From the NCBI GenBank assembly GCA_025360455.1, contig JANYCF010000077.1:1-39172 (forward strand): DNA of 39,172 nucleotides, written 5' to 3'. Source of the stretch: Opitutaceae bacterium (GTDB lineage Bacteria > Verrucomicrobiota > Verrucomicrobiia > Opitutales > Opitutaceae). The notes under the pieces are model-generated. The model was not told where the DNA came from. It searched no databases and saw only the letters and a list, made by a program, of their open reading frames with translations. Shown here one piece after another: positions 6,054-33,568 of the stretch; within the stretch, counting starts at the first letter, position 1; every line of letters begins with the position of its first letter. The translations under genes were made by a program, and so were the position numbers.

Positions 6054-8558
6054 GTGCGATTGCATTCGCATTTTCTAAAAATCACGCCAATTGCCGTGGC
6101 TCTCGTGATCAAGTCTCTCCGATCATCTTCCCTCGCCTGGTTGGCCGTTCCGCTCTGTGCGTGCGGATTTTTTTTTGGGATGAACGTGGTTCGCCTGCGG
6201 CACGTGGCGGAGGTATCCGCACAGGGTGGGTGGAGCGAGAAACAACCCGTGGCGCGTCTTGCCACCGCGTCGGCGCCGTCCGAGTTCGCAGCCGGCAACG
6301 GCTTGATTATTCCGGAGCACATCACGGAAAGTTTTCACTGGATGGCGCAGACCCAGCGGATGTTCACGCGCGGGGAATGGCGGGTGCGGCATATTGACTA
6401 CGAGAATGCGCCGCTCGGCCGCGCCGTGAATTCAACTTCGCCCTACCGGTGGTGGCTCGGCTGCCTTGCTTGGGGCGATCATGTTATTTCCGGCCGCTCG
6501 CCCGTGCAGTCGGTCGAACGCGCCGCGCGCGTTGCGGATCCGCTTCTGCATTTTTTGTTTCTGCTCGGAACCGCGCTCTTGGTCGCGTGGCGCTTCGGCG
6601 TTTTTTCGGCGGCGTTGGTTTCACTTGGCATCGTCACCCTCTTTCCGTTCGCCGCGGAATTTCTGCCCGGCGTGCCCGACGACCACGGGCTGGCGCACCT
6701 CTTTGCAATCGGGAGCGTGTTGCTGCTCCTCGTCGGAGTCGGCGCAAAAGCCGTGCCGACCGATTCCGACAAAGCGATGCGCCGCTGGTTTTTCTGCGCC
6801 GGCATAATTGGCGGTCTTGGACTTTGGCTCAGTGTGGCCGGTCAACTGCCGGTTCTCGCGGGAGTGGGAGCGGGCGCATTGCTCGCGGCATGGCTTGCGC
6901 GCGACCCCAGTAAGAAGGACACCTCGGCCCCAGTCATGTTGCCGTGGCGAACGTGGGCCGTGGGCGGCGCGGTTGCCACGCTGGGCGGCTACCTGTTGGA
7001 GTTTGCCCCCGCGCACCTCGGCAACTGGCATCTCGCCGCGATCCATCCGATTTATGGTTTGGCGTGGCTCGGGGGCGGTGAGGTGTTGGCGCAGGCAGCC
7101 GAATGGATTCAGGGCAAAAAAAATCCGCACACTTTCCGCACGCTTACGCTGCTCGTACTCGCGGCGCTCGCTCTCGTGTCCCTGCCGGTGGCTGTGTGGA
7201 AAGCCCACGATCACGTGTTCTTCAGTGCAGAGCTGCAATCGCTCCGACTGACAAAATTGCCGGACGGAGCCGTGGCGCAAAGTTTGGGCGAGTGGATTGC
7301 CCGCGAAGGAATGACGCTACCCGTTTGGTCCACGTTGCTCCCGTTGTTGTTGATTGCTCCCGCCCTTTGGTTGCTCACGCGACGCACGACCAGTGTGCTG
7401 CTGCGCGTGGCCGTGGCGGTGGTTCTGGGGCCGGTAATCGTGGCGCTCGGATTCGCTGCCGAGCAACTCGTCTGGTGGAATGAAGTCGATGGACTTTTGT
7501 TGGTGCTGCTGGTTGCGGTGACGGTGAATTGGTCGAACGTAAACCGTCCGAGCTATTACCGCCTCGCGTGGGTTGGGTTCGCCCTACTGCTGCTGGTCCC
7601 AGGTGTTTTCCAAATTGTGCTGCGACCCGGAATGAAAAGTGACCTATCTCAAGCGGAAGTGTTTGGTTTGGTGGAGCGGGATCTGGCTAGCTGGCTGGCG
7701 TTGCACGCCGATCCGGGCGGCGCGGTGGTGTTGGCCCCGCCCAATGAAAGCACGGCGCTCTGTTATTACGGAGGCCTGCGCGGGATCGGCACGCTCTCAT
7801 GGGAAAACAAAGAGGGCGTGGCGGCGGCCGTACGAATCTTGAGTGCGCCGAGTGCGCAGGAGGCGAAAGAATTGATCGATCAACGGGAGATCACCCACCT
7901 CATCATGCTCTCCTGGGATTCCTATTTCGACCAGTATGCGCGGGCGGGCACCGGACAACTTGAAGGATCGTTTCGCGCGGACCTTCGTTCGGGAAAACTG
8001 CCGCTCTGGCTTCGGCCGGTGGCTTATCAGCTGCCGACGATCACCGGTTTCGAAGGACAGTCGGTGACGCTTTATGAAGTGGTCGAAGAGCAGGATGAGG
8101 CGACAGCCTTGGGCCGGACGGTGGAGTATGATATCGAAATGGGCGCGATGGACCACGCCGTGACGACGGCGCAGGCGCTGCGGCGTTTTCCGGCGGATTT
8201 CGGCGCCTGGGTGGTGCAGGCCGAGGTTGAGTTGGCGAGTGGAGACGAAGCCGGATTCGCCCGATCGCTCAAGCGACTGCAGTCGCGGCTCGCGGCCAAG
8301 CCGGCTCCGAATCTCCAGTGGGATCTGCGCGTTGGACTCGCGTCGGTCCTCGTCAAAGCAAAGCAACCGGCTCTGGCGCGCGAACAAGTGAGCCTATGTC
8401 TGGCGGCCGTGGATGAGAAAAAAATCCGCGCACTTTCGACCGGTTCGCTTTATCGGCTGCTCGTGATGAGTCGCGGGTTCGGTTTGACCTTCGATGCGCC
8501 ATTGCACGCACGGGCGCTGGATCTATTGCCGAGTGATTTGCGGGCTCGGTTGAGGTAG
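6054..8558 (+). CDS. Polytopic membrane protein, GT-C/STT3-like layout, function unknown
   Basis: The frame gives 834 residues from a GTG at 6054. GTG codons at 6096 and 6108 are also possible starts, the latter placing the first membrane helix (SLAWLAVPLCACGFFFG) near the N terminus. A large loop rich in aromatic and charged residues follows (about 50-150, including FHWMAQTQRMFTRGEWRVRH and SPYRWWLG). Then come about eleven hydrophobic helices to about residue 530, and a soluble C-terminal part of about 300 residues with an alpha/beta feel. This order (helix, big first outer loop, many helices, soluble tail) resembles GT-C glycosyltransferases such as STT3/AglB, but I do not see a convincing DxD or WWDYG motif. 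I do not recognise the family. It converges on the LacI gene with a 12-bp gap. Confidence 0.85.
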   Translation: MRLHSHFLKITPIAVALVIKSLRSSSLAWLAVPLCACGFFFGMNVVRLRHVAEVSAQGGWSEKQPVARLATASAPSEFAAGNGLIIPEHITESFHWMAQTQRMFTRGEWRVRHIDYENAPLGRAVNSTSPYRWWLGCLAWGDHVISGRSPVQSVERAARVADPLLHFLFLLGTALLVAWRFGVFSAALVSLGIVTLFPFAAEFLPGVPDDHGLAHLFAIGSVLLLLVGVGAKAVPTDSDKAMRRWFFCAGIIGGLGLWLSVAGQLPVLAGVGAGALLAAWLARDPSKKDTSAPVMLPWRTWAVGGAVATLGGYLLEFAPAHLGNWHLAAIHPIYGLAWLGGGEVLAQAAEWIQGKKNPHTFRTLTLLVLAALALVSLPVAVWKAHDHVFFSAELQSLRLTKLPDGAVAQSLGEWIAREGMTLPVWSTLLPLLLIAPALWLLTRRTTSVLLRVAVAVVLGPVIVALGFAAEQLVWWNEVDGLLLVLLVAVTVNWSNVNRPSYYRLAWVGFALLLLVPGVFQIVLRPGMKSDLSQAEVFGLVERDLASWLALHADPGGAVVLAPPNESTALCYYGGLRGIGTLSWENKEGVAAAVRILSAPSAQEAKELIDQREITHLIMLSWDSYFDQYARAGTGQLEGSFRADLRSGKLPLWLRPVAYQLPTITGFEGQSVTLYEVVEEQDEATALGRTVEYDIEMGAMDHAVTTAQALRRFPADFGAWVVQAEVELASGDEAGFARSLKRLQSRLAAKPAPNLQWDLRVGLASVLVKAKQPALAREQVSLCLAAVDEKKIRALSTGSLYRLLVMSRGFGLTFDAPLHARALDLLPSDLRARLR

Positions 8559-8570
8559 GGCCGCAGATTT

Positions 8571-9632
8571 TTAAAGCGGACGCAAAGTCCGGCCTTCGTG
8601 CCAGTGGCCATGAACTTGCAGGGTACGGGGAATTTTTGGTATGCCGCGTTCACCGGCCTGCAATTTGGAAAACAACAAATCGACCGCCGCGCGGCCGATC
8701 TCGTCGGAATGCTGTTCAACCCCGCTCCAATCCGCATGCACCGAGGTCACGTCGAGCGAGACCAGACCGATATCCCGCGGAGCGTAGCGCCGGCGCGTGG
8801 TCAGCCAAGCCTCCATGTTATTCGGTTCGTTGCGAAAGGTGGAGAGAGTCAAAACGCAATCGACCGCGTGCTTATCGACCCATTCCAGGAACAGGTTCGC
8901 GTTCATTTTGGTGGGAAGGAGCGGGGGAATCTCAGCGAGGTGGGGCATGGTCGCGCGCAGTCCGGCATAACCGATGGACCACCGACCGTCGGTAATTTCG
9001 TTCTGATATTTTTCAATCGCGAGGCCGACGCGGCGACAACCGCACGCGGCGATCGCACGGGCGGCCATGGTCACGGCCTCGGCGTGATCGCTCACCACGC
9101 AATCGAGGCGCGGCGATTCGATGCAATGGCCCACCTGAACAAACGCGAAGTCATCCCACGGCAGTGAAATTTCGTGCGGTTCCGTCGGAAAGGCGGCCAA
9201 CAGCACGCCGGATATGCCGCGCGCGGTGAGGATCTCGCCGAGGCGACGCCCGGTCATGCCGCGGGAGCCGAGCGTAAATTCGGTGATGCCAAAGCCGAAT
9301 GATTCGGCGCGTTCGCGCGCGGCGTCCCAATTGCGCCAGAGCGTAGGCGTCGTGCGCCATTCCTGGGAATCCGCCACGGGCGTGACGAAGGCCAGGGTGC
9401 CGAGATGTTTTTGCGCTTCGCCACGGCGGGTGGCGCGCATGACCTGGCCGACGAGCGCATTGTGATGGTAGCCGGCGGCGGCGGCGGCGGCGAGGATGCG
9501 GAGCTCCGTGGCTTTCGCGACCTTCGCCGCGCCACTCAAACAACGGGACGCGGTGGAAACAGAAACCCCCGCCATTTTTGCGACCGCGTGAAGTGTTGGC
9601 GTCGTGTGAGGGGGAGGCACAACGGAGTTCAT
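8571..9632 (-). CDS. LacI-family transcriptional regulator
   Basis: From the ATG at 9632 the protein has 353 residues; an upstream in-frame ATG at 9719 would add 29 residues unlike the family. The N terminus is a LacI HTH plus hinge helix (about residues 13-55: TLHAVAKMAGVSVSTASRCL, then ELRILAAAAAAGY). The rest is a periplasmic-binding-protein-like effector domain (for example GISGVLLAAFP, RLDCVVSDHAEAV, IGLVSLDV). Regulators of this type bind a sugar and release or bind a short palindromic operator. The gene is divergent from the TonB receptor at 10066 and lies next to sugar phosphorylase and transporter genes, so it probably controls that block and itself. The ligand is probably an alpha-glucan oligosaccharide or disaccharide, inferred from context only. 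Confidence 0.93.
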   Translation of the reverse strand: MNSVVPPPHTTPTLHAVAKMAGVSVSTASRCLSGAAKVAKATELRILAAAAAAGYHHNALVGQVMRATRRGEAQKHLGTLAFVTPVADSQEWRTTPTLWRNWDAARERAESFGFGITEFTLGSRGMTGRRLGEILTARGISGVLLAAFPTEPHEISLPWDDFAFVQVGHCIESPRLDCVVSDHAEAVTMAARAIAACGCRRVGLAIEKYQNEITDGRWSIGYAGLRATMPHLAEIPPLLPTKMNANLFLEWVDKHAVDCVLTLSTFRNEPNNMEAWLTTRRRYAPRDIGLVSLDVTSVHADWSGVEQHSDEIGRAAVDLLFSKLQAGERGIPKIPRTLQVHGHWHEGRTLRPL

Positions 9633-10065
9633 GCGCTTTTTGTACGAGGGCGAAACCGTGCCGTCAAGAGTGACACCGCGGTTCCGTTGCGTTCCAAATT
9701 TTCTGCGGGCCACTTTCATTCAAGCGAGGGTGCGCGAAAAAATTTCCCTGTAAGAAAATTGTCCGCAACACGAAGCACGGGGAGAAGTCCGCCGCTGATT
9801 TCGCCGATAAAATCGGTCGGCTCCGCAACGTTTGCAAAGCAACGCAGTCGCGTTGGAAGAGTGTTTCATCGAAATCCAACCCAGCAGGCAGCGATTTCGG
9901 AGAAAGACTACTACCCACATCCTTCGTTTTTCTCGCGCTTCTGTTTTGTCCTATGAACATTATTAACACCCAAAAACACCTCAACTCCGTATCCCCTCGA
10001 CTGGGGAATACCTTTCTGAAGCGATGAGCAACCCCAACCCAATAATCCTTCCCGTATCCTCCCAC
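9633..10065. promoter_or_regulatory. Divergent control region between LacI regulator and TonB receptor
   Basis: This gap of about 430 bp is the likely control point of the sugar locus. Two small symmetric sequences stand out: GCAACGTTTGC at 9825-9835, whose centre AACGTT resembles LacI-type half sites around a central CG, and CCGATAAAATCGG at 9804-9816, a 5-bp inverted repeat with a 3-base spacer. Either could be an operator, but neither is proven. I could not place a confident -35/-10 box. Confidence 0.35.
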
Positions 10066-13000
10066 ATGAAGACTACCCACCTGCTTTCATGGCGCGCAGC
10101 CATGCTAGCCCTAGCGTTCACTTCCGGTGCGTACAGCCACGCCCAGACGACCGCCCCCGCCACTCCAGCCAAAGAGGAGGACATTGTTGTCCTGTCGCCT
10201 TTTGAAGTTTCAGCCTCTGCCACCGCCGAAAGTTACAATGCGGAAACCACGCTGGCCGGTAATCGACTCAACACCCAGTTGCGCGACATCGGCAGTGCCG
10301 TGACGGTTGTCACCAGCCAGTTCCTCAAAGATACCGCTGCGGTGAACAATGCTTCTTTGCTACAGTTCACCCCGAACTCCGAGGTGGGTGGCATCTACGG
10401 CAATTTTGCCGGCACCGGCGATGGGGCAGTGCTCATTGAGCCAAGCCAACGGCCCAACGAAAACACCCGTATTCGCGGCCTGGCCGCGGCTGACAACACC
10501 CGCGATTTTTTCCGCACCGATATTCCGTGGGACAGCTACAATGTTGATCGCGTGGATATTCAACGCGGGCCCAACTCCATCCTGTTCGGTCAGGGCAGTC
10601 CCGCCGGTATCATCAATGCAGGTTCCAAGGGTGCCAGCTTCCGCAATTCCGGGGAGATCGAGCTCCGCTATGGCAGCTACGGCAGCGCCCGCGGGACGCT
10701 CGATATCAATCAGGTGCTCGTCCCCGGTCAGGTTGCTTTCCGCATCGATGCCCTGTTCAACGATCAAAAATTCAAGCAGAAGCCTGCGTATTCGAAGGAC
10801 CAGCGCCTCTCCGGCGCGATCCGGATCGAGCCGGAATTTCTCAAGAAGAACGGCAATCGCACCATCTTCAAAGCCAACTTCGAATCCGGTCAGGTGGACG
10901 CCAACTATCCGCGTGAGCTCCCGCCGGTGGACAACATCACTCCGTGGTTCAAGACCGGTGCGGCCGGCGTGAATCAAATGCAATTGATCGGGTGGAATGC
11001 TTTCGATCACCTCTCCGGCCGGACCGGTCATGGTGCGGCGCGCGGCGCCGGCGAATTGTTGGCCGAATCCTCGCCCTGGATTCACAACGGCAGTTTCGGC
11101 ACACTGGGCGGGCAAGAGCCGGTGGCGTTTTTCTCCGGCAGCGGCGCACCCACGTATTGGATCACGTCGGTACCGCAGACGCTGCAGGGCAACGCTTACA
11201 ACCCAGGAAGTATCGGCGGATTTGCCGTCGCCCCGGGCTTTATCAACGGCATCGCGAGCACCTCGGCTTGGGCGGTCAACAGCGGCCAGCCGTATTCCGC
11301 CGGCGGTATCTATAAAAATAATCTCATCACCGATCCCTCGATTTTCAATTTCTACAATAAGTTGATCGACGGTAAGACCAAAAAAGAATGGCAGCGTTTC
11401 AATTCGGTTACGCTGAATCTTCAACAGACATTCTTGAACGACCAGGCGGGTTTCTCGATCGATTACGACAAAGAGCACTTTCAAAGCGGTGAGGTCGCCA
11501 TGTTAGGCGGCAATGTGGGTCTCTTTATTGATCCGATGAAAGTCTTCAACGATGGTACGCCGGACGTGGGTGTGACTCCGGGCGTGGAACCATTCTCGGA
11601 TGGTACCCGCAACACGAATCTGGGCCGTCCGTTTGTTTCGTCGACCCGAGGAGCCAACGATTCCTACACCAGTGATCTCGAGTCGAAGCGGGCCACGGCT
11701 TTCGTCACCCATAATTTCGACAAGGGTGAGAGGACCTGGCTGGGCCGCATTATCGGCACCCAGACACTCACGGGCCTGGTGGCGGATGACCAGCGCAAGA
11801 CGGACAGTCGCAATTGGAATCGCTATGGGTACATGGACCCGAGCGTCTACACGATCGAGCAACTGCAGTTGGGCACGAATAACTTCAACTCCGGTCCTTT
11901 GGTTCCGACCCAGATTGTCTACCTCGGTGGTTCGCTCCTGGGCAAAGCGGTCAGCGGGGCCAACATTCCGAGTGTGGCGGGTATTCCCACGCTCGAAAAC
12001 GGCCAGCTCCGTTATTTTAACGATCATTGGAATAAACCGACCGATCCGTTGGACCCGGGTTACGTCAACCCGAACGCGTATTGGGGTAACAACGCTTACC
12101 TGCCGGGCACACCCCGCTTTGATCAAACACAGGCGGATAATCCGGCGAATTACATCGGATGGACTTCGGCTCCCCTCAATGTGACGGACTCCGAAGCCAA
12201 GCTCGGCAACCGCGACCTGCTGACGACCCGGGCGGCGTTAAACAAATCGATCACCACTTCCCAGGCTCTGGTCTGGCAGGGCAAGATGCTCGACGGCGCA
12301 ATCGTCGGCACCTACGGCTGGCGCAAGGACATCAACAAGAGCTGGGCGGACACCCGCCAAGTGAGCAGCAATTCGGCGAATCGCGATTACAAGCGGATTG
12401 ATTTCAGCAACTATACATTAAGCCCGGTCCCGTATGACCGCGTAGAAGTTCAATCGCGCTCCTACAGCATCGTCGGGCATCTGATGGATCTCCCCGGCCT
12501 CAAGGATCTGACCAAGAACATGCCCTTCACGGTCAGTCTGCTTTATAACATCTCGACGAACTTCAAGCCCGATGCCAGTCGCGTGGATGTGGCGGGCAAT
12601 TCGCTCGCCTCGCCCTCAGGCAAGACCATTGACCGGGGCATCCAAATCGAGACGCGCGACGGCAAGTACTCGCTGAAAATCAATCGCTACATCACCTCGA
12701 ACAAAAATGCGACCAGCACGAACTCGAGTGCCTTCGGTTATGGCCTCGGTTCCTTCATGGGTTACAACGCCATCTGGACCAATGTCTGGGACTACCATAT
12801 CGGCAATGGTTACTTCGACAATCAGACTCCCGGTTTCTTCGAGTCGGGTCCGGTTCCACGGTACCTCTTCCGGACGGCGGGCACCGAAATTTCGACTCCC
12901 GAGACGGTGGCCGACCAACTCTCGTCTGTCGCCGGCATGCGTGCCTTCGAGAAAAACGTCGATACGGCCTTGCCGAATTTTTGGAAGGCGTGGGGTTTCA

Positions 13001-13785
13001 CCGATCTGGCTCACGTGCAATCCGGAGCAAAAATTCCTAACGCCGTGAACGGTGAAGTGCTCGTACCAAACGGATTCACCGTGACGGAAGACAGTGTCTC
13101 GAAGGGTTGGGAAATTGAGCTGAGTGCGCAGCCGGTGAAGAACTGGCGCTTGACGCTTAACGCCAGCAAATCGCAAGCGGTGCGGAGCAATATCGGCGGT
13201 GACGCGTTGAACAAACTCATGAACATTATCATAAAAGATATGCAGGGTCCGGCGGGCCAACTCCACTACTGGTGGGGCACGGCCGACGTTCCGCGCGCTG
13301 GTGCGGCACTCTACACCCAACTTAATCAGACCGGTGTCGACTGGGCCAGCCGCAAGCTCCTCGAAGGAAATAATGTGCCTGAGCTCCGCGAGTGGCGCAT
13401 CAACCTTATCTCCAACTACGACATCACCACGGGTAAATTGAAAGGTGCCAATTATGGTGGTGCGATCCGCTATCAAAGTAACGTCGGGATCGGTTATCCG
13501 CCGACGGGTAATCCGGCGGTGCCGGCTTCATACGGCTACGATCTTGCCAATCCCTACAAGGGACCGGCCGAGACAAACTTCGACTTCTGGGTGGGTTACA
13601 GCCGGAAGCTGACAGCCAAGATCAATTGGCACGTGCAGCTCAATGTTCAGAATGCGTTCAAGGGTAATTCTCTGATTCCGATCACAGTCCAGGGTCCGAT
13701 CGTGGGTACGACAGCCGGCACACCGGCGGGCTACCGCATCGCCCCCTCGCAGACCTTCACCCTCACCAACCGGTTTGAATTCTAA
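10066..13785 (+). CDS. TonB-dependent outer-membrane receptor
   Basis: From the ATG at 10066 the product has 1239 residues; an in-frame ATG at 10024 would put 14 extra residues before an otherwise normal signal peptide (MKTTHLLSWRAAMLALAFTS, cut near SHAQ). Directly after comes EDIVVLSPFEVSAS, the stretch typical of Opitutaceae TonB receptors, which probably includes the TonB box. The plug domain follows (RDIGSAVTVVTSQFLKD, RGPNSILFGQGSPAGIIN), then a very long beta-barrel. The chain ends in NRFEF, an aromatic C-terminal residue as expected for an outer-membrane barrel. Such receptors import oligosaccharides, siderophores or cobamides with TonB energy. Its place between a LacI regulator and a sugar phosphorylase cluster argues for an oligosaccharide. 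It is large for the family. Hairpins follow the stop. Confidence 0.93.
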   Translation: MKTTHLLSWRAAMLALAFTSGAYSHAQTTAPATPAKEEDIVVLSPFEVSASATAESYNAETTLAGNRLNTQLRDIGSAVTVVTSQFLKDTAAVNNASLLQFTPNSEVGGIYGNFAGTGDGAVLIEPSQRPNENTRIRGLAAADNTRDFFRTDIPWDSYNVDRVDIQRGPNSILFGQGSPAGIINAGSKGASFRNSGEIELRYGSYGSARGTLDINQVLVPGQVAFRIDALFNDQKFKQKPAYSKDQRLSGAIRIEPEFLKKNGNRTIFKANFESGQVDANYPRELPPVDNITPWFKTGAAGVNQMQLIGWNAFDHLSGRTGHGAARGAGELLAESSPWIHNGSFGTLGGQEPVAFFSGSGAPTYWITSVPQTLQGNAYNPGSIGGFAVAPGFINGIASTSAWAVNSGQPYSAGGIYKNNLITDPSIFNFYNKLIDGKTKKEWQRFNSVTLNLQQTFLNDQAGFSIDYDKEHFQSGEVAMLGGNVGLFIDPMKVFNDGTPDVGVTPGVEPFSDGTRNTNLGRPFVSSTRGANDSYTSDLESKRATAFVTHNFDKGERTWLGRIIGTQTLTGLVADDQRKTDSRNWNRYGYMDPSVYTIEQLQLGTNNFNSGPLVPTQIVYLGGSLLGKAVSGANIPSVAGIPTLENGQLRYFNDHWNKPTDPLDPGYVNPNAYWGNNAYLPGTPRFDQTQADNPANYIGWTSAPLNVTDSEAKLGNRDLLTTRAALNKSITTSQALVWQGKMLDGAIVGTYGWRKDINKSWADTRQVSSNSANRDYKRIDFSNYTLSPVPYDRVEVQSRSYSIVGHLMDLPGLKDLTKNMPFTVSLLYNISTNFKPDASRVDVAGNSLASPSGKTIDRGIQIETRDGKYSLKINRYITSNKNATSTNSSAFGYGLGSFMGYNAIWTNVWDYHIGNGYFDNQTPGFFESGPVPRYLFRTAGTEISTPETVADQLSSVAGMRAFEKNVDTALPNFWKAWGFTDLAHVQSGAKIPNAVNGEVLVPNGFTVTEDSVSKGWEIELSAQPVKNWRLTLNASKSQAVRSNIGGDALNKLMNIIIKDMQGPAGQLHYWWGTADVPRAGAALYTQLNQTGVDWASRKLLEGNNVPELREWRINLISNYDITTGKLKGANYGGAIRYQSNVGIGYPPTGNPAVPASYGYDLANPYKGPAETNFDFWVGYSRKLTAKINWHVQLNVQNAFKGNSLIPITVQGPIVGTTAGTPAGYRIAPSQTFTLTNRFEF

Positions 13786-13795
13786 TCTGGTGATT

Positions 13796-13877
13796 CGCCC
13801 CGGGGTTTAGGGTCCGGGGCGGATCTAAGACTGATTCGAGCGTAGGCTACCTCGCCAACCGTTAGGGGCGGTTGGCG
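13796..13877 (+). terminator. Two hairpins after the TonB receptor gene
   Basis: The first hairpin has arms CGCCCCGG (13796-13803) and CCGGGGCG (13814-13821). The second has arms CGCCAACCG (13853-13861) and CGGTTGGCG (13869-13877). Neither is followed by a T-run, so they may weaken rather than stop transcription into the next gene, or shield the receptor mRNA. Confidence 0.45.
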
Positions 13878-13989
13878 ATCACGATCATGCGGTGCGCAGC
13901 AAGGTGGTTCACCTCAGTGAACTGCTTCGCGCGCACCGCATCTCTTTCACTCCTCCAGCTCCAGCTGGATATCTACACATCAAAAACAA

Positions 13990-14871
13990 GTGGCACCGGT
14001 AAACGAAAAGCTGAACAGCAGTCAGGCCAGTCCATTGGCGATTTCAGGCAACGACCGATCGCAGGACTTCCGCCGTGACAGTCACCGGGCTGACGCGGAG
14101 AACGCCTTGGAATTCGATGCCGCGATTTTCGACATGGACGGCGTCATCACCCAAACCGCGGCCGTGCATTCCACGGCGTGGAAGCGGATGTTCGATGAAT
14201 ACCTCCGCGGTCGCGCAGATCGATCTGGCGAATCCTTCAAGGAGTTTTCCCACACCGGAGATTATCTGGTTTTTGTTGATGGCCGACCCAGAAGCCAAGG
14301 GGTCGCAGCCTTTCTGAAGTCACGGGGCATCATGCTCGATCCGGGGAACCCGGACGATCTGCCCGGCACCGAAACGATTTGCGGTCTCGGCAATCGCAAG
14401 AACGGACTCTTCAATCAAATTTTAGCGAGTGATGGGGTGGCGCTTTACGCTTCCACGCTTCTGCTCATCCAGGAAATGCGACGCGAGGGCATCAAAATCG
14501 GCCTGGCGACTTCCAGCAAAAATTCCGCCGTGATTTTGAATGCGACCGGCACCGCGCCGCTCTTTGCCACGATCGTGGATGGCCTGGTCTCCGAAAAGCT
14601 CGGACTCAAGGGCAAGCCGGAGCCGGATATTTTTTCAACCGCCAGCGCCAATCTGGGCGTATCCTGTGCGCGCGCCATCGTCATCGAAGATGCGGTGTCG
14701 GGTGTTCAGGCAGGCGCGAAGGGCGGCTTCGGCCTCGTGATCGGCGTGGCGCGCGAAGACAACGTGGCGGAACTGCGCGAGCACGGGGCCGACTTGGTGG
14801 TGCGGGATCTTTCCGAAACCAGCATCGAGCATATCAACCGGATGGTGCGGGCCAAGCGCGCCGGCGTCTGA
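13990..14871 (+). CDS. HAD-family beta-phosphoglucomutase-type enzyme
   Basis: The HAD catalytic signature FDMDGVIT carries the nucleophile D48 and acid/base D50. Other HAD motifs are S175/S176 (GLATSSKN), K209 (KGKPEPDIF) and the acidic pair E233-D234 (VIEDAVSGV). The cap region with VDGRPRSQGVAAFLKSRGI matches the beta-phosphoglucomutase group often found beside GH65 phosphorylases. The expected reaction is beta-glucose 1-phosphate to glucose 6-phosphate in the cytoplasm. The GTG at 13990 gives 293 residues with an unusual 40-residue lead. A TTG at 14107 with GGAG six bases upstream would start right before the catalytic motif and may be the true start. It lies 26 bp before the transporter gene. 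A phosphatase role is possible but less likely beside GH65. Confidence 0.9.
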   Translation: MAPVNEKLNSSQASPLAISGNDRSQDFRRDSHRADAENALEFDAAIFDMDGVITQTAAVHSTAWKRMFDEYLRGRADRSGESFKEFSHTGDYLVFVDGRPRSQGVAAFLKSRGIMLDPGNPDDLPGTETICGLGNRKNGLFNQILASDGVALYASTLLLIQEMRREGIKIGLATSSKNSAVILNATGTAPLFATIVDGLVSEKLGLKGKPEPDIFSTASANLGVSCARAIVIEDAVSGVQAGAKGGFGLVIGVAREDNVAELREHGADLVVRDLSETSIEHINRMVRAKRAGV

Positions 14872-14897
14872 TAGACCAAACCTAACCTCCTAAAAAT

Positions 14898-16403
14898 ATG
14901 CTCTTAAGAAAAAAACCTCGGTTAAGTTTTTGGCAGCTCTGGAACATGAGCTTCGGTTACGTTGGCATTCAATTTGGCTTTGCCCTGCAGAACGCCAACG
15001 TCAGCCGCATCTTCGAAACGCTGGGCGCGAAGGTGGATGAGATTCCGATTCTCTGGATCGCCGGGCCCGTGTCAGGCTTGCTGGTGCAGCCGGTCATCGG
15101 GTACCTGAGCGACAAGACATGGAACCGCCTCGGCCGCCGGAAACCGTATTTTTTGATCGGTGCAATTCTGGCGTCGCTTGCCCTGCTGGTGATGCCCAAT
15201 TCCCCCGTGCTGTGGTTCGCCGCCGGGATGCTGTGGATCATGGACGCTTCCATCAATGTCACCATGGAGCCCATGCGCGCCTTCGTGGGCGACATGCTGC
15301 CCGATGAGCAGCGTACCACGGGTTTTGCCGTCCAAACCTTTTTCATCGGGGCGAGCTCGGTCATCGGCTCGCTGCTGCCGTATCTGCTGACGAACTGGTT
15401 TCATCTGGCCAACACCGCGCCCGAGGGCGTTGTTCCCGATTCCGTGAAGTGGTCCTTCTACCTTGGCGGCGGTGTTTATCTGCTGGCCGTGCTGTGGACG
15501 ATTTTTTCCACGAAGGAATATTCACCGGAAGAGCAGGAAGCTTTTCACGCCAAGAGCAACGAGGCCGGTCAACCAGATCTCGTCGTCGAACTGGACGCGA
15601 AAAAATATACATTCGCCGGTGCCGGTCTGTTGTTGGGCGGCTTGATTTTTAGCCTGATTATCCGGCTGCTGGCGTGGGACAAGGGACTCTATATTCTCTC
15701 CTTCGGTGCCAGCTTCTATGGCGTCCTGCAGCTGGTGGCCGCGGCGCGGTACACGGCGGGGAAAAAGCAGGGCTTGGTCGAGTTGGTCCAGGATTTGAAC
15801 AACATGCCCGGCCCGATGCGCCAGCTCGCCTTGGCGCAGATGTTCACCTGGTTCGCCCTGTTCGCGTTCTTCATTTATTCCACCGCCGCCGTCACCAGCT
15901 ATCATTTTGGCAGCAGCGATCCGAAGAGCGCGGCGTATAACTTGGGCGCCAACTGGGTCGGGGTTTTGATGTCGGTCTACAACGGCGTGGCGGCGCTCGT
16001 GGCCTTTCTTCTGCCGGTTTTGGCCAAGCGCACGAGCCGGGTGATGACTCACCAGATCTGCCTCGTCATCGGCGGGCTGGGGCTGGGCTCGATGTACTTT
16101 TTCCACGATCCGCAGCTGCTGATTGTCTCCATGATCGGCCTCGGCATCGCCTGGGCCAGCCTGCTGACCATGCCGTATGCGATCCTGAGCAGCGTCGTCC
16201 CGTACCGGAAGATGGGCGTGTACATGGGCATGTTTAATTTCTTCATCGTCATCCCGCAAATTCTCGCGGCCGCCCTCCTGGGCCTGCTCGTACGCACAGT
16301 GTTTCACGGCCACACCATCTACGCGCTTGCGCTGGGCGGGGTGTCCATGATCGCGGCCGCAGGACTCATGCTGCGGGTGAAAGACGAGCGCAAAGAGATC
16401 TGA
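14898..16403 (+). CDS. MFS disaccharide transporter (SLC45/GPH-like, maltose/sucrose type)
   Basis: The 501-residue protein has about twelve hydrophobic helices. The N terminus ([20 protein letters not shown]) and the loop between helices 2 and 3 ([19 protein letters not shown]) match sugar:cation symporters of the SLC45/GPH kind, including bacterial maltose and sucrose carriers. It would move a disaccharide across the inner membrane with protons or sodium. It lies between the phosphoglucomutase (26 bp upstream) and the GH65 phosphorylase (5 bp downstream), which strongly suggests one transcript and a substrate split by the phosphorylase. No Shine-Dalgarno is evident before the ATG. Confidence 0.92.
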
Positions 16404-16408
16404 GCAAA

Positions 16409-18715
16409 ATGAAAAACCTTTGGGAAATCAGCACCACTGAATATGCCGGCGGCAAGGAAGGCGTCATGCGCCGCGGCAACGTCTATCAGCTCGCCAATGG
16501 CTACATGGGCTATCGCGGCACCTTGGACGAATTCGGTCCGGCTGAACTGGTCGGCATCACCCTCGCCGGCATTTTTGATCGCGTCGGCCTGGCCTGGCGC
16601 GAACCCGTCAATGCGCCCAACGGTGGCTATACGCGCGTGTCACTCGATGGGGTGGAGCGCTCCGTGCTCACCAGCAAAGTCACGCGGCACCACCAGACGC
16701 TGCACTTGGCTTCGGCCCGGTTCGAGCGGGAAACGGTCTTCTCCGCGCGTGCGAAAAAGCTGACGATCAAGTCGGCGCGTTTCCTCAGTGCGGACACGCC
16801 CAACCTCGGGGTGATCCAATACAGTGTGAGCTGCGACAAGGCTGCTAACATCACGATCCGCACCGGCATAGACGGCAACATCTGGGATCTGAACGGCCCG
16901 CACTTGTTGCAGCTGGCCGCGGAAAAACGGGAGGGGGTTCTGCTGGTGCAAGGCGTCACGAACGAAAATGCCAAGCGGGTGCTCGTCGCCGAAGCGATCG
17001 ATTTGAATTTTGGCGAGGAAACCCACGAATGGCAGGATCAGCGCAATCTCCGGGTGATCCGCTGGCAGGCGGAGGCGGGCCAGACCTACACGTTCCACAA
17101 GTATTTCGCGGTGGTCACGGACAACGACCTGGCCGGCAAACCGATTGAGCCAGCGGCGGTGAAGATGGTGCTGAAGGCGAAGGCGCTCGGCCACGCCGCC
17201 TGCTTGGAAAAGCACCGGGCCGAGTGGGCGAAAAAGTGGGAGCGTTGCGATGTGCAGATCGAGGGGGATGACGAAGCGCAGCTCGCGCTGCGCTACAGCA
17301 TTTTTCAATTGCTGATCGTGGCCCCCGTGGCCGGCAGCGCGAATTCGATTCCGGCGCGGGCCCTGTCGGGGCAGGTCTACAAGGGCGCTATTTTCTGGGA
17401 CACGGAAATGTTCATGTTCCCGTTCTTCCTGCACACTTATCCGGAGAAGGCGGTGGAGCTGATGCGCTACCGCATCAAGACGCTGGACGGAGCCCGCCGG
17501 AAGGCCCGGACGGAGGGCCCCGGTTATCGCGGCGCGTTCTATGCGTGGGAAAGCCAGGAGACGGGCGACGACGCCTGCTCGTATTTCAACATCGGCGATC
17601 CGTTTACCGGCCGCGATCTGCGCACGCATTTCCGGGACAAACAGGTGCACATCAGCGGAGACGTGGCGATCGCGCTGTGGGAATATTTCAAGCTCACCGG
17701 CGATGACTCGCTGTTGCTGGAGGGCGGCGCCGAGGTGATTTTGGAATGCGCCCGGTTTTATTTTTCCCACGCCTACTTTAAGAAAGAGAAGGGGCGCTAC
17801 GAGATTCTCGATGTGATCGGACCGGACGAATACCATGAGTGCGTCAACAACAACGCGTTCACGAGCATGGTGGCGAAGGAGACCTTCGTGATCGCCAATG
17901 CGATGGTGGAGCACCTGCGAAAAAATCAGCCCAAGGCCCTGCGCGCGCTGGTGAAGAAGATCGGCATCAGCCGCGAATTGGCCGACTTTCGCGAGGCCGC
18001 GCGCCTGCTGTATGTGCCCGCCCCGGATTCCAAGACGGGCGTTATCGAGCAATTCGACGGCTACTTCAAACTGCGGGACGATACGGTCGAGGAACTGAAG
18101 TCCAGGATGGTTCATCCGAACGAATACCTCGGCGCCGGCCAAGGATTGGCGGTGCCGACCAAGGTTATCAAGCAGGCCGACGTGGTCATGATGCTGAATC
18201 TTTTCAAGACCCGTTATTCCGCAAAAATTAAGCAGGCGAACTGGGAATATTACGAACCCCGCACCGAGCACGGCTCCAGTCTGAGCGCTTGTGCCTATGC
18301 GATGGTGGCGGCGGAATTTGGTGATCTCGACTTTGCCTACAAATATTTCCTGAAAACGGCGAAGATCGATCTCGAGGCCAAGTACAAGGTGTACGTGGGC
18401 ACCGTCTTCATGGGCGGCTCGCACCCGGCGGCCAACGGCGGGGCGTGGATGACCGCCGTGCTGGGCTTCGGTGGAGTGCAAGCCGACGAAAACCGGGTCG
18501 TGATCAATCCGCGTCTTTGCGCGCAATGGCAGACCTTCCGGTTTTATCTGGCGTACAAAGGCGATGGCTTCCGGATCAAGATCACGAAAACCGCGGTGAC
18601 GATTTCCTCGCCATCCACCAATGTTCGCAGACATACGATGCTCGTAGCAGGTAATAAAACGGAATGCGCCCCCGGCGCGTCCGTGACGGTCAAGTACCGG
18701 CCAACCAAACAGTGA
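16409..18715 (+). CDS. GH65 disaccharide phosphorylase (nigerose/kojibiose/trehalose/maltose group)
   Basis: The 768-residue length and domain order fit GH65: an N-terminal beta-sandwich (to about 270), a helical linker, an (alpha/alpha)6 barrel (about 290-680) and a small C-terminal beta sheet. FWDTE at 329-333 and the catalytic-acid motif VIGPDEYHE at 469-477 (acid E474), followed by VNNNAFT, are present. GH65 phosphorylases are inverting cytoplasmic enzymes that use phosphate to split an alpha-glucosyl disaccharide into beta-glucose 1-phosphate and glucose. That product is the substrate of the HAD mutase encoded upstream. The linkage preferred cannot be read from these motifs. The neighbouring GH87-type enzyme makes nigerose (alpha-1,3) the best guess, with kojibiose, trehalose and maltose still possible. 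No signal peptide is present, as expected. Confidence 0.93.
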   Translation: MKNLWEISTTEYAGGKEGVMRRGNVYQLANGYMGYRGTLDEFGPAELVGITLAGIFDRVGLAWREPVNAPNGGYTRVSLDGVERSVLTSKVTRHHQTLHLASARFERETVFSARAKKLTIKSARFLSADTPNLGVIQYSVSCDKAANITIRTGIDGNIWDLNGPHLLQLAAEKREGVLLVQGVTNENAKRVLVAEAIDLNFGEETHEWQDQRNLRVIRWQAEAGQTYTFHKYFAVVTDNDLAGKPIEPAAVKMVLKAKALGHAACLEKHRAEWAKKWERCDVQIEGDDEAQLALRYSIFQLLIVAPVAGSANSIPARALSGQVYKGAIFWDTEMFMFPFFLHTYPEKAVELMRYRIKTLDGARRKARTEGPGYRGAFYAWESQETGDDACSYFNIGDPFTGRDLRTHFRDKQVHISGDVAIALWEYFKLTGDDSLLLEGGAEVILECARFYFSHAYFKKEKGRYEILDVIGPDEYHECVNNNAFTSMVAKETFVIANAMVEHLRKNQPKALRALVKKIGISRELADFREAARLLYVPAPDSKTGVIEQFDGYFKLRDDTVEELKSRMVHPNEYLGAGQGLAVPTKVIKQADVVMMLNLFKTRYSAKIKQANWEYYEPRTEHGSSLSACAYAMVAAEFGDLDFAYKYFLKTAKIDLEAKYKVYVGTVFMGGSHPAANGGAWMTAVLGFGGVQADENRVVINPRLCAQWQTFRFYLAYKGDGFRIKITKTAVTISSPSTNVRRHTMLVAGNKTECAPGASVTVKYRPTKQ

Positions 18716-18721
18716 TCGCCC

Positions 18722-20488
18722 ATGAAAATTTTTATCACTCAACTCCGCACCCACAGGAAGGCAAAGCTGACCTCGGCTCTGCTGGTCGTGACTCTCGCCT
18801 TCGCGGGCGCCGCCGGTTTTTGTTACGGCAACGAACGAATCGGGGCTGACACACCGTGGACGACCTATGAAGCGGAGGCCATGAAAACCAACGGCGTGGT
18901 GCTGGGGCCGAAATATGCCGCCCATCTCGTGGAGACCGAATCCTCGGGCCAGCAGTGCGTGAAACTCACGGAGGTTGGGGGGGGCGTCGAGTTCGCCGCT
19001 GCAGCGGAGGCCAATGCCCTGGTGGTCCGTTTCAGCTTGCCGGATTCCGATGATGGCGTGGGCGTCGAGTCTTCGCTCGCGTTACTCATCAACGGCCAGG
19101 AGGTCCGGACGCTCGCGCTCACCTCCCATTATTCGAGGATCTACGGCGCGTATCCTTTTTTCAATACGCCGGCCGCCGGAATCCCGCGCAATTTCTACGA
19201 CGAAATTCGCGTCAAGGATTTGTCGATCACGAAGGGCGATGTGATCCGCCTGCAAAAGAACACGGCCGACGGTCACTATTGCATCCTCGACCTGGTCGAT
19301 CTGGAAAAAGTGCCGGCCCCGCTGGCGGCGCCCGCCAACGCGCTCTCCGTGCTTGATTACGGCGCGGGCGGCAAGGGCGTGACCGACGACACGGCGGCAC
19401 TGAAGAGTTGCCTGACCGAGGCCCTCAAGCAGGGGCGCACCGTCTGGGTCCCGGCCGGCGAGTATAAGCTGACGGGCGATATCGTCCTGCCTTCGGCTGC
19501 GTCGATCCAGGGTGCGGGTATGTGGCATACGACATTCGTCGGCGATGCCGCGCTCTACGGCCAGGCCGACCGGCGGGTGCGGTTTAAACTCGCGGGCAAA
19601 AATATTCACTTGGCCGATTTCGCGATCAGCGGAAAATTGAACTACCGCAATGACGACGAGCCCAACGACGGGGTTGTGGGGGCGGTGTGTTCTGATTCGA
19701 CGGTGGCTCGCATCTGGATCGAACACACCAAGACCGGCGCGTGGATCTATAATGGCACGCGATTGCGCCTCGAGGGGTGCCGGTTCCGTAATTTGCTGGC
19801 CGATGGCGTGAACCTCTGCACCGGATGCAATGGAATTGTAGTCGAGAACTGCAGCACGCGCGGCACCGGCGACGATTGTTTCGCCATCTGGCCGACCGTC
19901 TCCGACCAGGGTTACGTGCAGGATGCGCGTCCGGGCAATAACGTGATCCGGCACTGCACGGGTCAGTTGCCCTTCCTCGCCAACGGTGGCGCGGTTTACG
20001 GCGGACAAAACAATTGCATCGAGGATTGCCTCTTCACGGACATCACCACGGCTTGCGGCATTCTCCTCAGTACGACCTTCCCGACCGCGGATGAGGCGCG
20101 GAAGATCGACAACAACTTCAGCGGCACGACGGTGGTTCGGAATTGCGAATTGGTCCGCTGCGGCGGTGATGATCACGATTGGTCGTGGCGGGCCGCCCTG
20201 CAGCTCTGCGTGGATCGCAAGAGCATCTCCGGGATTTTGCTGAGTCACATTACCATCCGCGACAGTCTGTCCGATGGCTTGAGCGTCGTGGCTCCCGGCA
20301 GCACGAAAGTGGGCGCAACGCTATCGGAGGTGCGTCTCGAACAGGTAACTATTCTCAACTCGGGTATCGGTGCACCGGATCGCCACGCCCTGTGGATTCG
20401 TCAAGACGCGGTGGGAAACCTGACCGTCGTGGATTCGAATATCCCCAGCATCCAAAACGATTCTGCCAAGTTCGGCATTCGGCAGTAA
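18722..20488 (+). CDS. Secreted GH87-type alpha-1,3-glucanase (mutanase/mycodextranase-like)
   Basis: The 588-residue chain begins with a signal peptide (AKLTSALLVVTLAFAGAAG, cut around CYG/NE). Residues about 46-196 form a carbohydrate-binding-like beta-sandwich (TTYEAEAM, HYSRIYGAYPF, FYDEIRVKDL). From about 207 there is a right-handed beta-helix opening with LDYGAGGKGVTDDTAALKSC. The acidic cluster ADGVNL (D361) and RGTGDDCFAIW (D384, D385) has the same spacing, 23 then 1, that I recall for the GH87 catalytic Asp triad of the Paenibacillus enzyme Agl-FH1. GH87 enzymes hydrolyse alpha-1,3-glucan or nigeran outside the cytoplasm. The gene starts 6 bp after the GH65 gene, so the two are surely co-transcribed. 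Another beta-helix glycosidase or epimerase is possible if the family call is wrong. Confidence 0.78.
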   Translation: MKIFITQLRTHRKAKLTSALLVVTLAFAGAAGFCYGNERIGADTPWTTYEAEAMKTNGVVLGPKYAAHLVETESSGQQCVKLTEVGGGVEFAAAAEANALVVRFSLPDSDDGVGVESSLALLINGQEVRTLALTSHYSRIYGAYPFFNTPAAGIPRNFYDEIRVKDLSITKGDVIRLQKNTADGHYCILDLVDLEKVPAPLAAPANALSVLDYGAGGKGVTDDTAALKSCLTEALKQGRTVWVPAGEYKLTGDIVLPSAASIQGAGMWHTTFVGDAALYGQADRRVRFKLAGKNIHLADFAISGKLNYRNDDEPNDGVVGAVCSDSTVARIWIEHTKTGAWIYNGTRLRLEGCRFRNLLADGVNLCTGCNGIVVENCSTRGTGDDCFAIWPTVSDQGYVQDARPGNNVIRHCTGQLPFLANGGAVYGGQNNCIEDCLFTDITTACGILLSTTFPTADEARKIDNNFSGTTVVRNCELVRCGGDDHDWSWRAALQLCVDRKSISGILLSHITIRDSLSDGLSVVAPGSTKVGATLSEVRLEQVTILNSGIGAPDRHALWIRQDAVGNLTVVDSNIPSIQNDSAKFGIRQ

Positions 20489-20591
20489 TCAGTCTATTGC
20501 CGTTCGAGTATCCGGGCGGTGAATGGTTTACTGGAAGACTAACAGAGAAAAGTGAGTTGGGCTCGATTGCTTGCTCTCGGCGCTAAGCTGA

Positions 20592-20939
20592 TCACGCATA
20601 CCCCAAGGTCATCGGGGCGCCAATGAGGTCGCGCTGTTCTTGCGTGATCACATAGGCAGAAACTTGTTTCTGCATACCTCGCACCGTGGCCGCCTGAGCC
20701 TCATAAGTGGAGGTCCGCTTCTGATTGTTCTGCAGAAATTCGGCATCCATCGAACGACTAATCAGCTGCTGGATGCGCTCCTGTTGCTGGTCTGATGCTT
20801 GTTGGTCTTGGTTCAACCGGCTGCTGATGGTCTCCGCCTGTTTGATTTGGCGCGTCTGGCTGGACGGGGTGGAGCTGATATTAAGCATGGCCTGACGAGC
20901 GATAAGCTGGCCACGATTTTCAGTTATGGGGCTGGGCAT
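20592..20939 (-). CDS. Hypothetical Gln-rich coiled-coil protein
   Basis: The 115-residue frame is not recognised. The sequence is rich in Gln, Ser, Arg and Thr and mostly helical in character (RQIKQAETISSRLNQDQQ, QQQERIQQLISRSMDAEFLQ), with a likely coiled coil over about residues 25-60. There is no signal peptide or membrane helix. AGGA lies about 15 bases before the ATG. It stands alone and convergent with the GH87 gene. The coherent composition favours a real gene, but it could be spurious. Confidence 0.55.
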   Translation of the reverse strand: MPSPITENRGQLIARQAMLNISSTPSSQTRQIKQAETISSRLNQDQQASDQQQERIQQLISRSMDAEFLQNNQKRTSTYEAQAATVRGMQKQVSAYVITQEQRDLIGAPMTLGYA

Positions 20940-21194
20940 TATTTATTGGTGGATCCTGGGGCGGATAGGGGAATTTTTCGTTTTCGATGCCGAGTGTCCA
21001 GCTTAGGCTTGGTCACAGAATTGTGAAATCGCGTCACGTCGCGTCGCGTATAAGCTGCGCCCCGCGATTGGTGGCGACGGGTGGTTTGCCGGTGGTCGTG
21101 GTTGAGCGATGCGGTGAGCTGAACTCTTTAGGTTCTTCGCGTTTCCGCTGGGTGAGGACAGAATGCGGCTAAGTGCTGCACCGAGGCAAACCCA

Positions 21195-21258
21195 CGGCCG
21201 AGGGCGGCCGCGCTCCTTTTGGCCTCGTGCATTCAGGGCGAGCGGGCGCCCTCGACCG
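21195..21258. repeat. Imperfect palindrome (GAGGGCGSCCGC type)
   Basis: The left arm 21195-21216 (CGGCCGAGGGCGGCCGCGCT...) and right arm 21236-21258 (ending GCGCCCTCGACCG) are imperfect inverted copies around a 19-base loop. Each arm is GC-rich enough to fold alone. No second copy was noticed in the window. Confidence 0.7.
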
Positions 21259-21330
21259 CATTTCGTCCCCCCAACGACCTAGCAGAAACAGCGAGGAACC
21301 ATTCTTTATTCTAAACCCGGTAGTTGGATT

Positions 21331-21467
21331 GAACCACAGATTGCACAGAGAGCACGGATACAGAACTTTGAATTAAAAAATCAGCATAACCATCCTCACT
21401 CTGCGGATGAGCCAATCCTTCAGCGCATCGTCTTGGTTCTCTGTGCATTCTGTGCAATCCGTGGTTC
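21331..21467. repeat. Long inverted repeat (GAACCACRGATTGCACAGA type)
   Basis: The left arm 21331-21355 and right arm 21443-21467 match at 22 of 25 positions as inverted copies. Each begins (reading inwards) GAACCAC, then R, then GATTGCACAGA. The interior of 87 bases holds no gene. It lies just beyond the 3' end of the cupin gene. Confidence 0.85.
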
Positions 21468-21538
21468 CAAATGCCTGGAAATAGATATTCGTTGTTTTCT
21501 CCTCTGCGAACTCCGCGTTTCGACTGCCGTTTCTTGGT

Positions 21539-21904
21539 TTATCCCAATGTTTCGTAGCAACCGGGCGTGAAGCGCGGGGTGCAAATGCAATAGAAAATCA
21601 GATCGGTCGTGCCTTCGTTGGTTATTTGCTGGGGTGCATCCGCCGGGATCACCACGACAGAACCCGGTCCAACCTTTGCCGGAGTCAGTGTGCCAATGCG
21701 CATGATGCCACTACCGGATACGATGACGTAGCGCTCAGCCACTCCGCGCAGGCGGTGCCGTTGGGTGGTGACGCCCGGCGTCACGCGTGCACGCGCAATC
21801 GAGGTCGTGGCATCGCTGAGATCGTTCCAGGTTTCAAGAATCCAGCAACGTTCCGAAGTGAGAAACTCCGTCTGCATGTCGGGGTGATGAATCGTGGGGC
21901 GCAT
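21539..21904 (-). CDS. Small single-domain cupin protein
   Basis: The 121-residue protein is a compact cupin barrel. Motif 1 spans about residues 44-64 (GVTTQRHRLRGVAERY, then VSGSG) and motif 2 starts near 80 (PGSVVVIPADAPQQITN). Metal-ligand positions are incomplete: H50 and E57 are present, but the second His of motif 1 is Leu52 and the His of motif 2 appears to be Gln. Metal binding may be altered or absent. Similar small cupins include sugar isomerases and uncharacterised binding proteins. No operon partner is adjacent; it is divergent from the gene at 22073. Confidence 0.85.
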   Translation of the reverse strand: MRPTIHHPDMQTEFLTSERCWILETWNDLSDATTSIARARVTPGVTTQRHRLRGVAERYVIVSGSGIMRIGTLTPAKVGPGSVVVIPADAPQQITNEGTTDLIFYCICTPRFTPGCYETLG

Positions 21905-22072
21905 GGGGTTGCTGCATGGTTTAAACCAAAAGCGTTAAGCGCAAAGCTCGAAAAATATGCGCTCAGGATCGGGAGAGGGCATCGTGAATTGCTGGTTGAT
22001 CGATGGGTTGTCGTTTGACGCCGATGGGTTGGCTGCTGCTGACTGATGCGCCCTCCTTAACCGCTTCAACCC

Positions 22073-30694: not shown

Positions 30695-30718
30695 TCCCGA
30701 CCCTGCACGATCACTCCC

Positions 30719-31462: not shown

Positions 31463-31504
31463 TTTGTTGGCCCGCACTTCCGTGAACCTTCCCGTATAAT
31501 TTCC

Positions 31505-32056: not shown

Positions 32057-32095
32057 AATCTCTTCTCGCTGCCATCTATGATATTTCTTCCTTGT

Positions 32096-32172
32096 GTAGG
32101 AGCCTGCTTGCAGGCGACTCGGAACACCCGCTGACCATTCGAATATTTAGTCGCCTGTAAACAGGCTCCTAC
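32096..32172. repeat. Long palindrome, type 1, second copy
   Basis: GTAGGAGCCTG...GGCGACT at the left and AGTCGCCTGTAAACAGGC then TCCTAC at the right match the arms of 2197-2293. The left arm carries GCTTGC where the other has GTTTAC, and its inner fold is kept (GCCTGC...GCAGGC). It separates the DoxX gene from the second oxidoreductase gene. Confidence 0.92.
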
Positions 32173-32211
32173 CTTCCAAACCAACACGTCTTCCTCCTCT
32201 GCCTTTCGCAC

Positions 32212-33558: not shown

Positions 33559-33568
33559 CCTCTCCGTT

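Follow-up and report, generated by a model that had tools for sequence, protein, structure and literature searches.

The stretch of DNA analysed here (the window) covers 39,172 nt of an Opitutaceae bacterium (assembly GCA_025360455.1, contig JANYCF010000077.1, positions 1-39,172, forward strand) and carries six neighbouring genes which, in our judgement, quite likely make up one locus under LacI control that serves the use of alpha-1,3-linked glucan. A gene for a LacI-family regulator on the reverse strand (8571-9719; PF00356, 45 bits) is followed on the forward strand by genes for a TonB-dependent outer-membrane receptor of 1253 aa (10024-13785; PF07715 Plug, 37 bits), a haloacid dehalogenase-type (HAD) protein of the beta-phosphoglucomutase kind (13990-14871; Pfam HAD), a major facilitator superfamily (MFS) sugar symporter (14898-16403; PF07690 (MFS_1), 90 bits), a predicted GH65 inverting phosphorylase without a signal sequence (16409-18715; PF03632, 315 bits) and a predicted GH87 alpha-1,3-glucanase (18722-20488; CatAgl_D1 (PF22815), 117 bits; CatAgl_D2 (PF22816), 109 bits). 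A candidate LacI operator, GCAACGTTTGCA, to which no strand is assigned, lies at 9825-9836 between lacI and tonB. The HAD, MFS, GH65 and GH87 genes are separated by gaps of 26, 5 and 6 bp, and 204 bp lie between TonB and HAD. Open reading frames and Pfam families agree with the first-pass annotation of this DNA, which had described the same six genes with the last four tightly spaced. Two of the reading frames are probably over-extended at their N termini, as the helix-turn-helix of LacI starts at residue 42 (true start probably near 9632, Met30) and the homology of the HAD protein likewise begins at residue 42.

That these genes form a coherent unit, as had also been proposed, was borne out in relatives. 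The TonB, HAD, MFS, GH65 and GH87 genes occur together in all of the first six relatives examined at the GH87 region, five of which have an orthologous LacI (58-83% identity) and the sixth a LacI of 31% identity. The family loci L095, L096 and L097 keep the five genes, with a LacI ortholog in L096, a 32% LacI in L097 and none found in L095. Locus L093, from the same order, retains the TonB, MFS (80%) and GH87 (61%) genes; a different HAD lies there on the opposite strand, and its GH65 is another member (47%) of the EEQ clade described below. In a phylum sample of 387 genomes, the window's own included, a GH87 match at E 1e-20 was found in 16, a close GH65 (48% identity or more) in 12 (32 at E 1e-60), and both in 9. 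GH87 was thus present in 9/12 genomes with a close GH65 vs 7/375 others, with a Fisher p of 4.9e-12 that is indicative at most, given the kinship among the genomes and the presence of the window's own genome in the sample. In three of the seven genomes carrying GH87 and no close GH65, a GH65 of another type adjoins the GH87 gene (L094, L099, L100). A chance neighbourhood was rejected in view of the gene set recurring in relatives and of the co-occurrence of GH65 and GH87 across the phylum sample.

Beyond the phylum, an alignment scan for GH87 in one genome per species (84,980 species) gave 162 confirmed matches, the best 80 of which, in 78 loci, were kept. Among these 78, a GH65 of at least 44% identity occurs in 25 and only another GH65 in 6, while HAD, MFS, GH65 and GH87 genes are all present in 18, with TonB as well in 12. 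The four-gene core also occurs in three Alphaproteobacteria loci, one of them from Rhizomicrobium electricum, whose GH65s cluster together inside those of Verrucomicrobiota in our tree; this nesting suggests transfer, and the core may have passed between the two groups. No relative of the window-type TonB was found (E 1e-12) in the three Alphaproteobacteria loci, and R. electricum has a TonB receptor of another kind on the opposite strand. The core is present in the deposited strain R. electricum DSM 21034 (L134), where no relative of the window TonB or LacI was found, and, together with TonB, in Verrucomicrobiae bacterium DG1235 (L130), whose record is not marked as a metagenome-assembled genome (MAG), so that the prediction is testable in these two. 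In L130 a GH99 gene (50.5 bits; GH71 below cut-off) follows GH87, and in L092 a GH71 gene (36 bits, cut-off 34) lies beside GH87 and two GH65s, GH71 being a family tied to alpha-1,3-glucan (PMC9061262). A tblastn search against plasmids returned 95 records, all below 60% identity, which were not used.

The assignment of the last gene product, a beta-helix protein, to GH87 held up on closer comparison. Its catalytic domains D1 and D2 (beta-helix) score well above the Pfam cut-offs of 27, and its best solved relatives are GH87 alpha-1,3-glucanases (188, 185 and 126 bits). The AlphaFold model (mean predicted local distance difference test score, pLDDT, 85.4) retrieved as its seven top PDB fold matches only GH87 alpha-1,3-glucanases, with template modelling (TM) scores of 0.79-0.82 by query length and a steep drop thereafter; these include 5zru, 7c7d, 6k0m and mutants of the latter, and three of the seven entries hold nigerose. 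According to the PDB titles, the Paenibacillus GH87 mutants D1045A, D1068A and D1069A (6k0p/6k0q/6k0s) have nigerose or tetrasaccharides bound. Asp361, Asp384 and Asp385 of the window enzyme are invariant in a 15-row alignment including three solved enzymes, and their spacing of 23 + 1 is the same as that of Asp1045/1068/1069 in the Paenibacillus enzyme. A hydrophobic segment near the N terminus (16-34) fits a signal sequence. Judged by profile, modelled fold and predicted catalytic triad, the last gene encodes a GH87 enzyme, predicted to be an alpha-1,3-glucanase. A beta-helix protein outside GH87 was excluded by the Pfam domains and the fold matches.

The GH87 family includes both alpha-1,3-glucanases and mycodextranases (PMC13421300), and with both activities known the polymer might instead be nigeran, an alternating alpha-1,3/alpha-1,4-glucan, from which a mycodextranase would release nigerose by cutting the alpha-1,4 links; a nigerose-based inner pathway suits either polymer. 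Both by sequence and by fold, the top matches are without exception alpha-1,3-glucanases, which speaks against nigeran, although it weighs little because no mycodextranase is among the comparison structures. We regard nigeran as an unlikely substrate and favour alpha-1,3-glucan. Elsewhere in the window's own genome (G000), contig C157 carries three GH87-like beta-helix stretches in a row (11779-15721, L042; 24-27% identity), two stretches of this contig being above the PF22816 cut-off (42.3 and 28.1 bits), compared with 109.5 bits for the window GH87.

The GH65 enzyme of the locus is the sole GH65 found in the window's genome (92.9% complete). Its N, central and C domains are all matched in Pfam (central 315 bits), and its solved relatives are the 2-O-glucosylglycerol phosphorylase BsGGP (479 bits), kojibiose phosphorylase (368 bits) and maltose phosphorylase (217 bits). 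BsGGP has been described as a distant relative of the kojibiose and nigerose phosphorylases (PMC3899277). In alignments it keeps the catalytic general acid Glu in GPDEY and the two phosphate-site serines in HGSSLS, and the loop has its His (His672), with Arg at the Lys position as in BsGGP (by eye). Bacterial GH65 hydrolases exist (PMC8626586, PMC8537180), and the enzyme could accordingly be imagined to hydrolyse its substrate to two glucoses, with the HAD protein serving another reaction. The base of one such hydrolase, FjGH65A, is Glu616 (PMC8626586), and the GH65 of locus L203, which scores 958 bits against this kojibiose hydrolase, carries the base Glu; traced through L203, the window GH65 has Gly at this position, so that hydrolysis is unlikely and the enzyme is predicted to be a phosphorylase. 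Together with the phosphate-site serines, His672, the Arg shared with BsGGP and the co-encoded beta-phosphoglucomutase, this leaves the hydrolytic alternative a very slim chance, even when Glu620, which is invariant in a 13-row alignment of the EEQ clade and adjoins the phosphate site, is counted in its favour. Glu620 stands just before the phosphate-site His (TEHGSSLS), a position occupied by Leu, Met or Val in the solved GH65s of the alignment. The GH65 model (mean pLDDT 81.3) has GH65 phosphorylases as its nearest folds, and its loop 390-411 falls below a pLDDT of 50; for that reason the model was left out of the substrate argument.

We were then left with the question of which disaccharide the predicted phosphorylase accepts. 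De Beul et al. described six specificity positions in GH65 (PMC8537180), corresponding to CsKP 64, 392, 394, 402, 416 and 585, which we read by alignment to kojibiose phosphorylase. The printed group motifs are KV[MF]NES for maltose and EEAPxx for kojibiose phosphorylases, and single tested enzymes read TRIGPP (trehalose), FAITQA (alpha-1,3-oligoglucan), EEAPWS (kojibiose) and DQGQDE (trehalose 6-phosphate) (PMC8537180). The window GH65 reads EEQSHG, which fits none of the printed maltose, trehalose, kojibiose, oligo-nigerose and trehalose-6-phosphate motifs, nor EIGPHP, as read for BsGGP in the same alignment; EEQ followed by S or T is found in all 31 other relatives of at least 46% identity. 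On these grounds the maltose type (KV[MF]NES; the reference LbMP also falls in another tree clade), the trehalose type (TRIGPP, a motif from one tested enzyme and here judged by motif alone), the kojibiose type (EEAPxx; Thr417 replaced by Phe) and the glucosylglycerol type (EIGPHP) were each rejected; as far as sequence can tell, the enzyme does not belong to the maltose or trehalose branch, an outcome that would have refuted the first-pass reading.

A quick maximum likelihood tree of 90 GH65 rows, with no trehalose phosphorylase sequence among them, placed the window enzyme within a 45-row clade (SH-aLRT 99), with BsGGP as the sister of this clade (99). EEQ is read by exactly these 45 rows, the next letter always being S or T, whereas LbMP falls in a separate 21-row group (98), 15 rows of which read F or Y, then A. 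A tandem of an EEQ-clade member and an F/Y-A GH65 was seen in 7 of 9 loci examined from one clostridial family. Among 397 genomes drawn from this family, 11 contain a GH65 matching at E 1e-110 (the first draw, of 299 genomes, gave 9 of these), and the loci examined are the regions of 9 of the 11. Paenibacillus athensensis, two other contigs from Clostridia and one Planctomycetes MAG show the same tandem. In Lachnoclostridium phytofermentans the neighbouring numbers Cphy_3313 and Cphy_3314 designate a nigerose phosphorylase and an alpha-1,3-oligoglucan phosphorylase, respectively (PMC8950772). The tandems resemble this pair, and the EEQ type is therefore called nigerose phosphorylase by analogy, the tandem pairing being the link between clade and function. 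From fingerprint, clade and neighbours, the window GH65 is probably a nigerose phosphorylase; this part of the first-pass annotation thus fits the data as a prediction, drawn from a tree in which no characterised nigerose phosphorylase stands. EEQ[ST] may serve as a fingerprint for finding further probable nigerose phosphorylases.

Another glucoside has also to be considered, namely kojibiose, 2-O-glucosylglycerol or 3-O-glucosyl-rhamnose, in which case the GH87 gene would be a passenger. BsGGP is both the nearest solved relative and the sister of the clade, and of the kojibiose subsite W391/E392/T417 the window GH65 reads W/E/F, so that Trp391 and Glu392 are kept. Thr417, however, is Phe or Tyr, the remaining fingerprint letters differ, and the adjacency of GH87 and GH65 is seen again in several phyla; SVSWRQ, from a one-sequence subgroup assigned to rhamnoside phosphorylase by elimination, shares no letter with EEQSHG. 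We consider such a glucoside decidedly unlikely and retain nigerose as the best call.

The remaining components are in keeping with this assignment. The HAD protein has beta-phosphoglucomutase 8h5s as its best solved relative (197 bits) and carries the FDMDG (DxD) motif, in agreement with its earlier annotation, while its TIGR02009 score in NCBIfam is 144.4 bits, 9 bits under the cut-off of 153.35, and its TIGR01990 score falls 88 bits short of the cut-off; the protein is predicted to convert beta-glucose 1-phosphate into glucose 6-phosphate. The MFS protein, with 66-87% identity among locus relatives, has SUC1 and SLC45 member 4 as its nearest solved proteins and reaches 107 bits with the sucrose/proton symporter model TIGR01301, far below the cut-off of 511 (NCBIfam); we propose that it carries the disaccharide over the inner membrane. 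The TonB receptor ends in a C-terminal Phe, its solved relatives are TonB receptors, and its identity in conserved loci is 45-64%, with one piece in L118 at 36%. No SusD family was found among the window proteins scanned, and the SusC/SusD pair of a Bacteroidota-type polysaccharide utilisation locus (PUL) was accordingly not recovered.

In many fungal walls, and in the dental-type biofilm matrix, alpha-1,3-glucan is a major component. In the pathway that we propose, secreted GH87 would degrade this polymer, with nigerose and short nigero-oligosaccharides as products. These pieces would cross the outer membrane through the TonB receptor, and the MFS symporter would move the disaccharide into the cytoplasm. 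There, phosphorolysis of nigerose by GH65 would yield glucose and beta-glucose 1-phosphate; conversion of the beta-glucose 1-phosphate to glucose 6-phosphate by the HAD mutase would spare the cell one ATP for each disaccharide. LacI bound at GCAACGTTTGCA would keep lacI and tonB repressed, together with the four genes downstream of tonB, which are presumably reached by read-through; a sugar signal would lift the repression.

The proposed operator is a 12-bp near-palindrome (ideal palindrome CTGCAA-CGT-TTGCAG), noticed as a recurring 12-mer among TonB-upstream stretches, and the copy in the window is the sole exact one in the 4.85-Mb genome. When 450 bp before TonB were compared in 18 loci, 13 carried an exact copy, the others having 1 (L117), 2 (L093), 4 (L097) or 5 mismatches (L039, L130); L118, where the contig reaches just 91 bp ahead of TonB, was left out of this count. 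Each of the 10 examined loci that possess an orthologous LacI (57-83% identity, and the window) carries the site with one mismatch at most. In the eight loci where no LacI ortholog was found, the site is exact in four (L095, L121, L148, L153) and not in the other four, of which L039, L093 and L097 have a LacI of 31-33% identity and L130 none that was found. A search of 16 genomes located the site at the locus in all eight locus carriers (11 of 17 sites in total) and in one of eight genomes picked as lacking the locus (one copy), and the control pattern read backwards gave 4 sites in the same genomes. In six distinct loci lacI is relocated behind GH87; an exact second copy of the site lies before lacI in L035, L036 and L096. 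In L120 a copy with 1 mismatch is located where the match starts; the best site has 3 mismatches in L038 and no fewer than 4 in L037. Palindrome lists of intergenic stretches and a palindrome count across loci gave nothing useful. Taken with the company of LacI, GCAACGTTTGCA is probably the operator of the locus LacI, and this 12-bp site offers a handle for finding regulon members. Genome G006 has four further exact copies outside the locus, possibly marking regulon members or arising by chance.

Several observations weigh against a single LacI-controlled alpha-1,3-glucan locus. Regarding the unit, three of the 12 close-GH65 genomes (G300, G238, G081) lack a GH87 match at 1e-20, and their GH65, which adjoins a HAD gene in all three, otherwise has different neighbours. 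In 47 of the 78 GH87 loci, including all 27 assigned to Bacteroidota by their titles, no GH65 lies in the DNA examined, some of the contigs being short. Regarding the enzyme, the nearest solved one is a glucosylglycerol phosphorylase (479 bits vs 368 for kojibiose phosphorylase), and the agreement of the F/Y-A GH65s with FAITQA is sure at just the first 2 of 6 positions, with a different loop and a variable fourth letter. Regarding control, the four loci named above have an exact site and no LacI ortholog in the DNA examined, no operator-like site was found ahead of the HAD gene, and hairpin-like repeats occur between TonB and HAD. Taken by itself, the window gives no striking match, as 30 of 100 shuffles had one at one mismatch, so that the weight of the site rests on its conservation. 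In G300 a weak pectate-lyase-like match lies near the GH65 (26.2 bits vs a cut-off of 27). By eye, the EEQ-clade GH65s of G300 and G238 (L089, L090) are near sulfatase-like genes, possibly a second use of the enzyme. The hairpin-like repeats in the gap (13786-13989), also seen by eye, include CGCCAACCG...CGGTTGGCG and might form an attenuator or partial terminator.

Operons of GH65, beta-phosphoglucomutase and MFS genes exist for maltose and trehalose phosphorylases and share with the window the inner logic of symporter, phosphorylase and mutase; in contrast to them, the window differs in the predicted substrate linkage and couples these genes to a secreted GH87 and a TonB receptor. In L. phytofermentans, a putative GH87 lies near the nigerose phosphorylase Cphy_1874, together with the GH31_u1 Cphy_1877, an ABC transporter and LacI, a neighbourhood for which the cited text proposes nigerose breakdown (PMC9061262). 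GH65, GH87 and LacI are likewise together in the window, whereas the Gram-positive cluster has ABC uptake and a GH31 glucosidase, and the window has TonB and MFS and no GH31 among its six genes. As with Cphy_3313/Cphy_3314, EEQ GH65s often pair with a GH65 whose fingerprint resembles that of alpha-1,3-oligoglucan phosphorylase in Clostridia, Paenibacillus and Planctomycetes; unlike them, the window has the disaccharide-type GH65 alone. A branched-mutan PUL predicted in 2026 for Prevotella melaninogenica contains GH87, GH97, GH71/99, TonB, SusD and SusR, and according to the same text no GH87 locus has been experimentally determined (PMC13421300). GH87 occurs with a TonB-dependent transporter in both, but the Prevotella PUL would end with a hydrolytic GH97 and includes SusD, where the window has a phosphorolytic GH65 and mutase, MFS and LacI. 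The novelty first claimed for the locus is therefore right in part: we found no description of a Verrucomicrobiota version in the open-licence literature searched, while the L. phytofermentans locus had already been noted and the Prevotella locus predicted, in the texts cited. The pairing of GH87 with a nigerose phosphorylase is known from one clostridium, L. phytofermentans, and what we lay out here is its outer-membrane version, the spread of that version and its probable switch site. On balance we lean towards a SusD-less, TonB-fed, phosphate-splitting alpha-1,3-glucan regulon, in which a mobile HAD-MFS-GH65-GH87 core is joined to local receptors and, in Verrucomicrobiota, to a LacI with GCAACGTTTGCA as operator.

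Around the locus, a gene on the reverse strand (2339-5968) encodes an FG-GAP/ASPIC-UnbV repeat protein, a 77% relative of which directly precedes the TonB gene in G201 (L095, no lacI found). The 834-aa protein encoded at 6054-8558 on the forward strand has 11 hydrophobic segments and neither a Pfam nor a PDB match. In the approximately 1.6 kb past GH87 (20489-22072), no recognisable or decayed gene was found when the translated DNA was compared with the proteins of the window itself and with one GH99 (best E 0.03). Farther downstream (29330-35801), two Gfo/Idh/MocA oxidoreductase genes and a 3-keto-disaccharide hydrolase-type gene look like a separate 3-keto-glycoside pathway.

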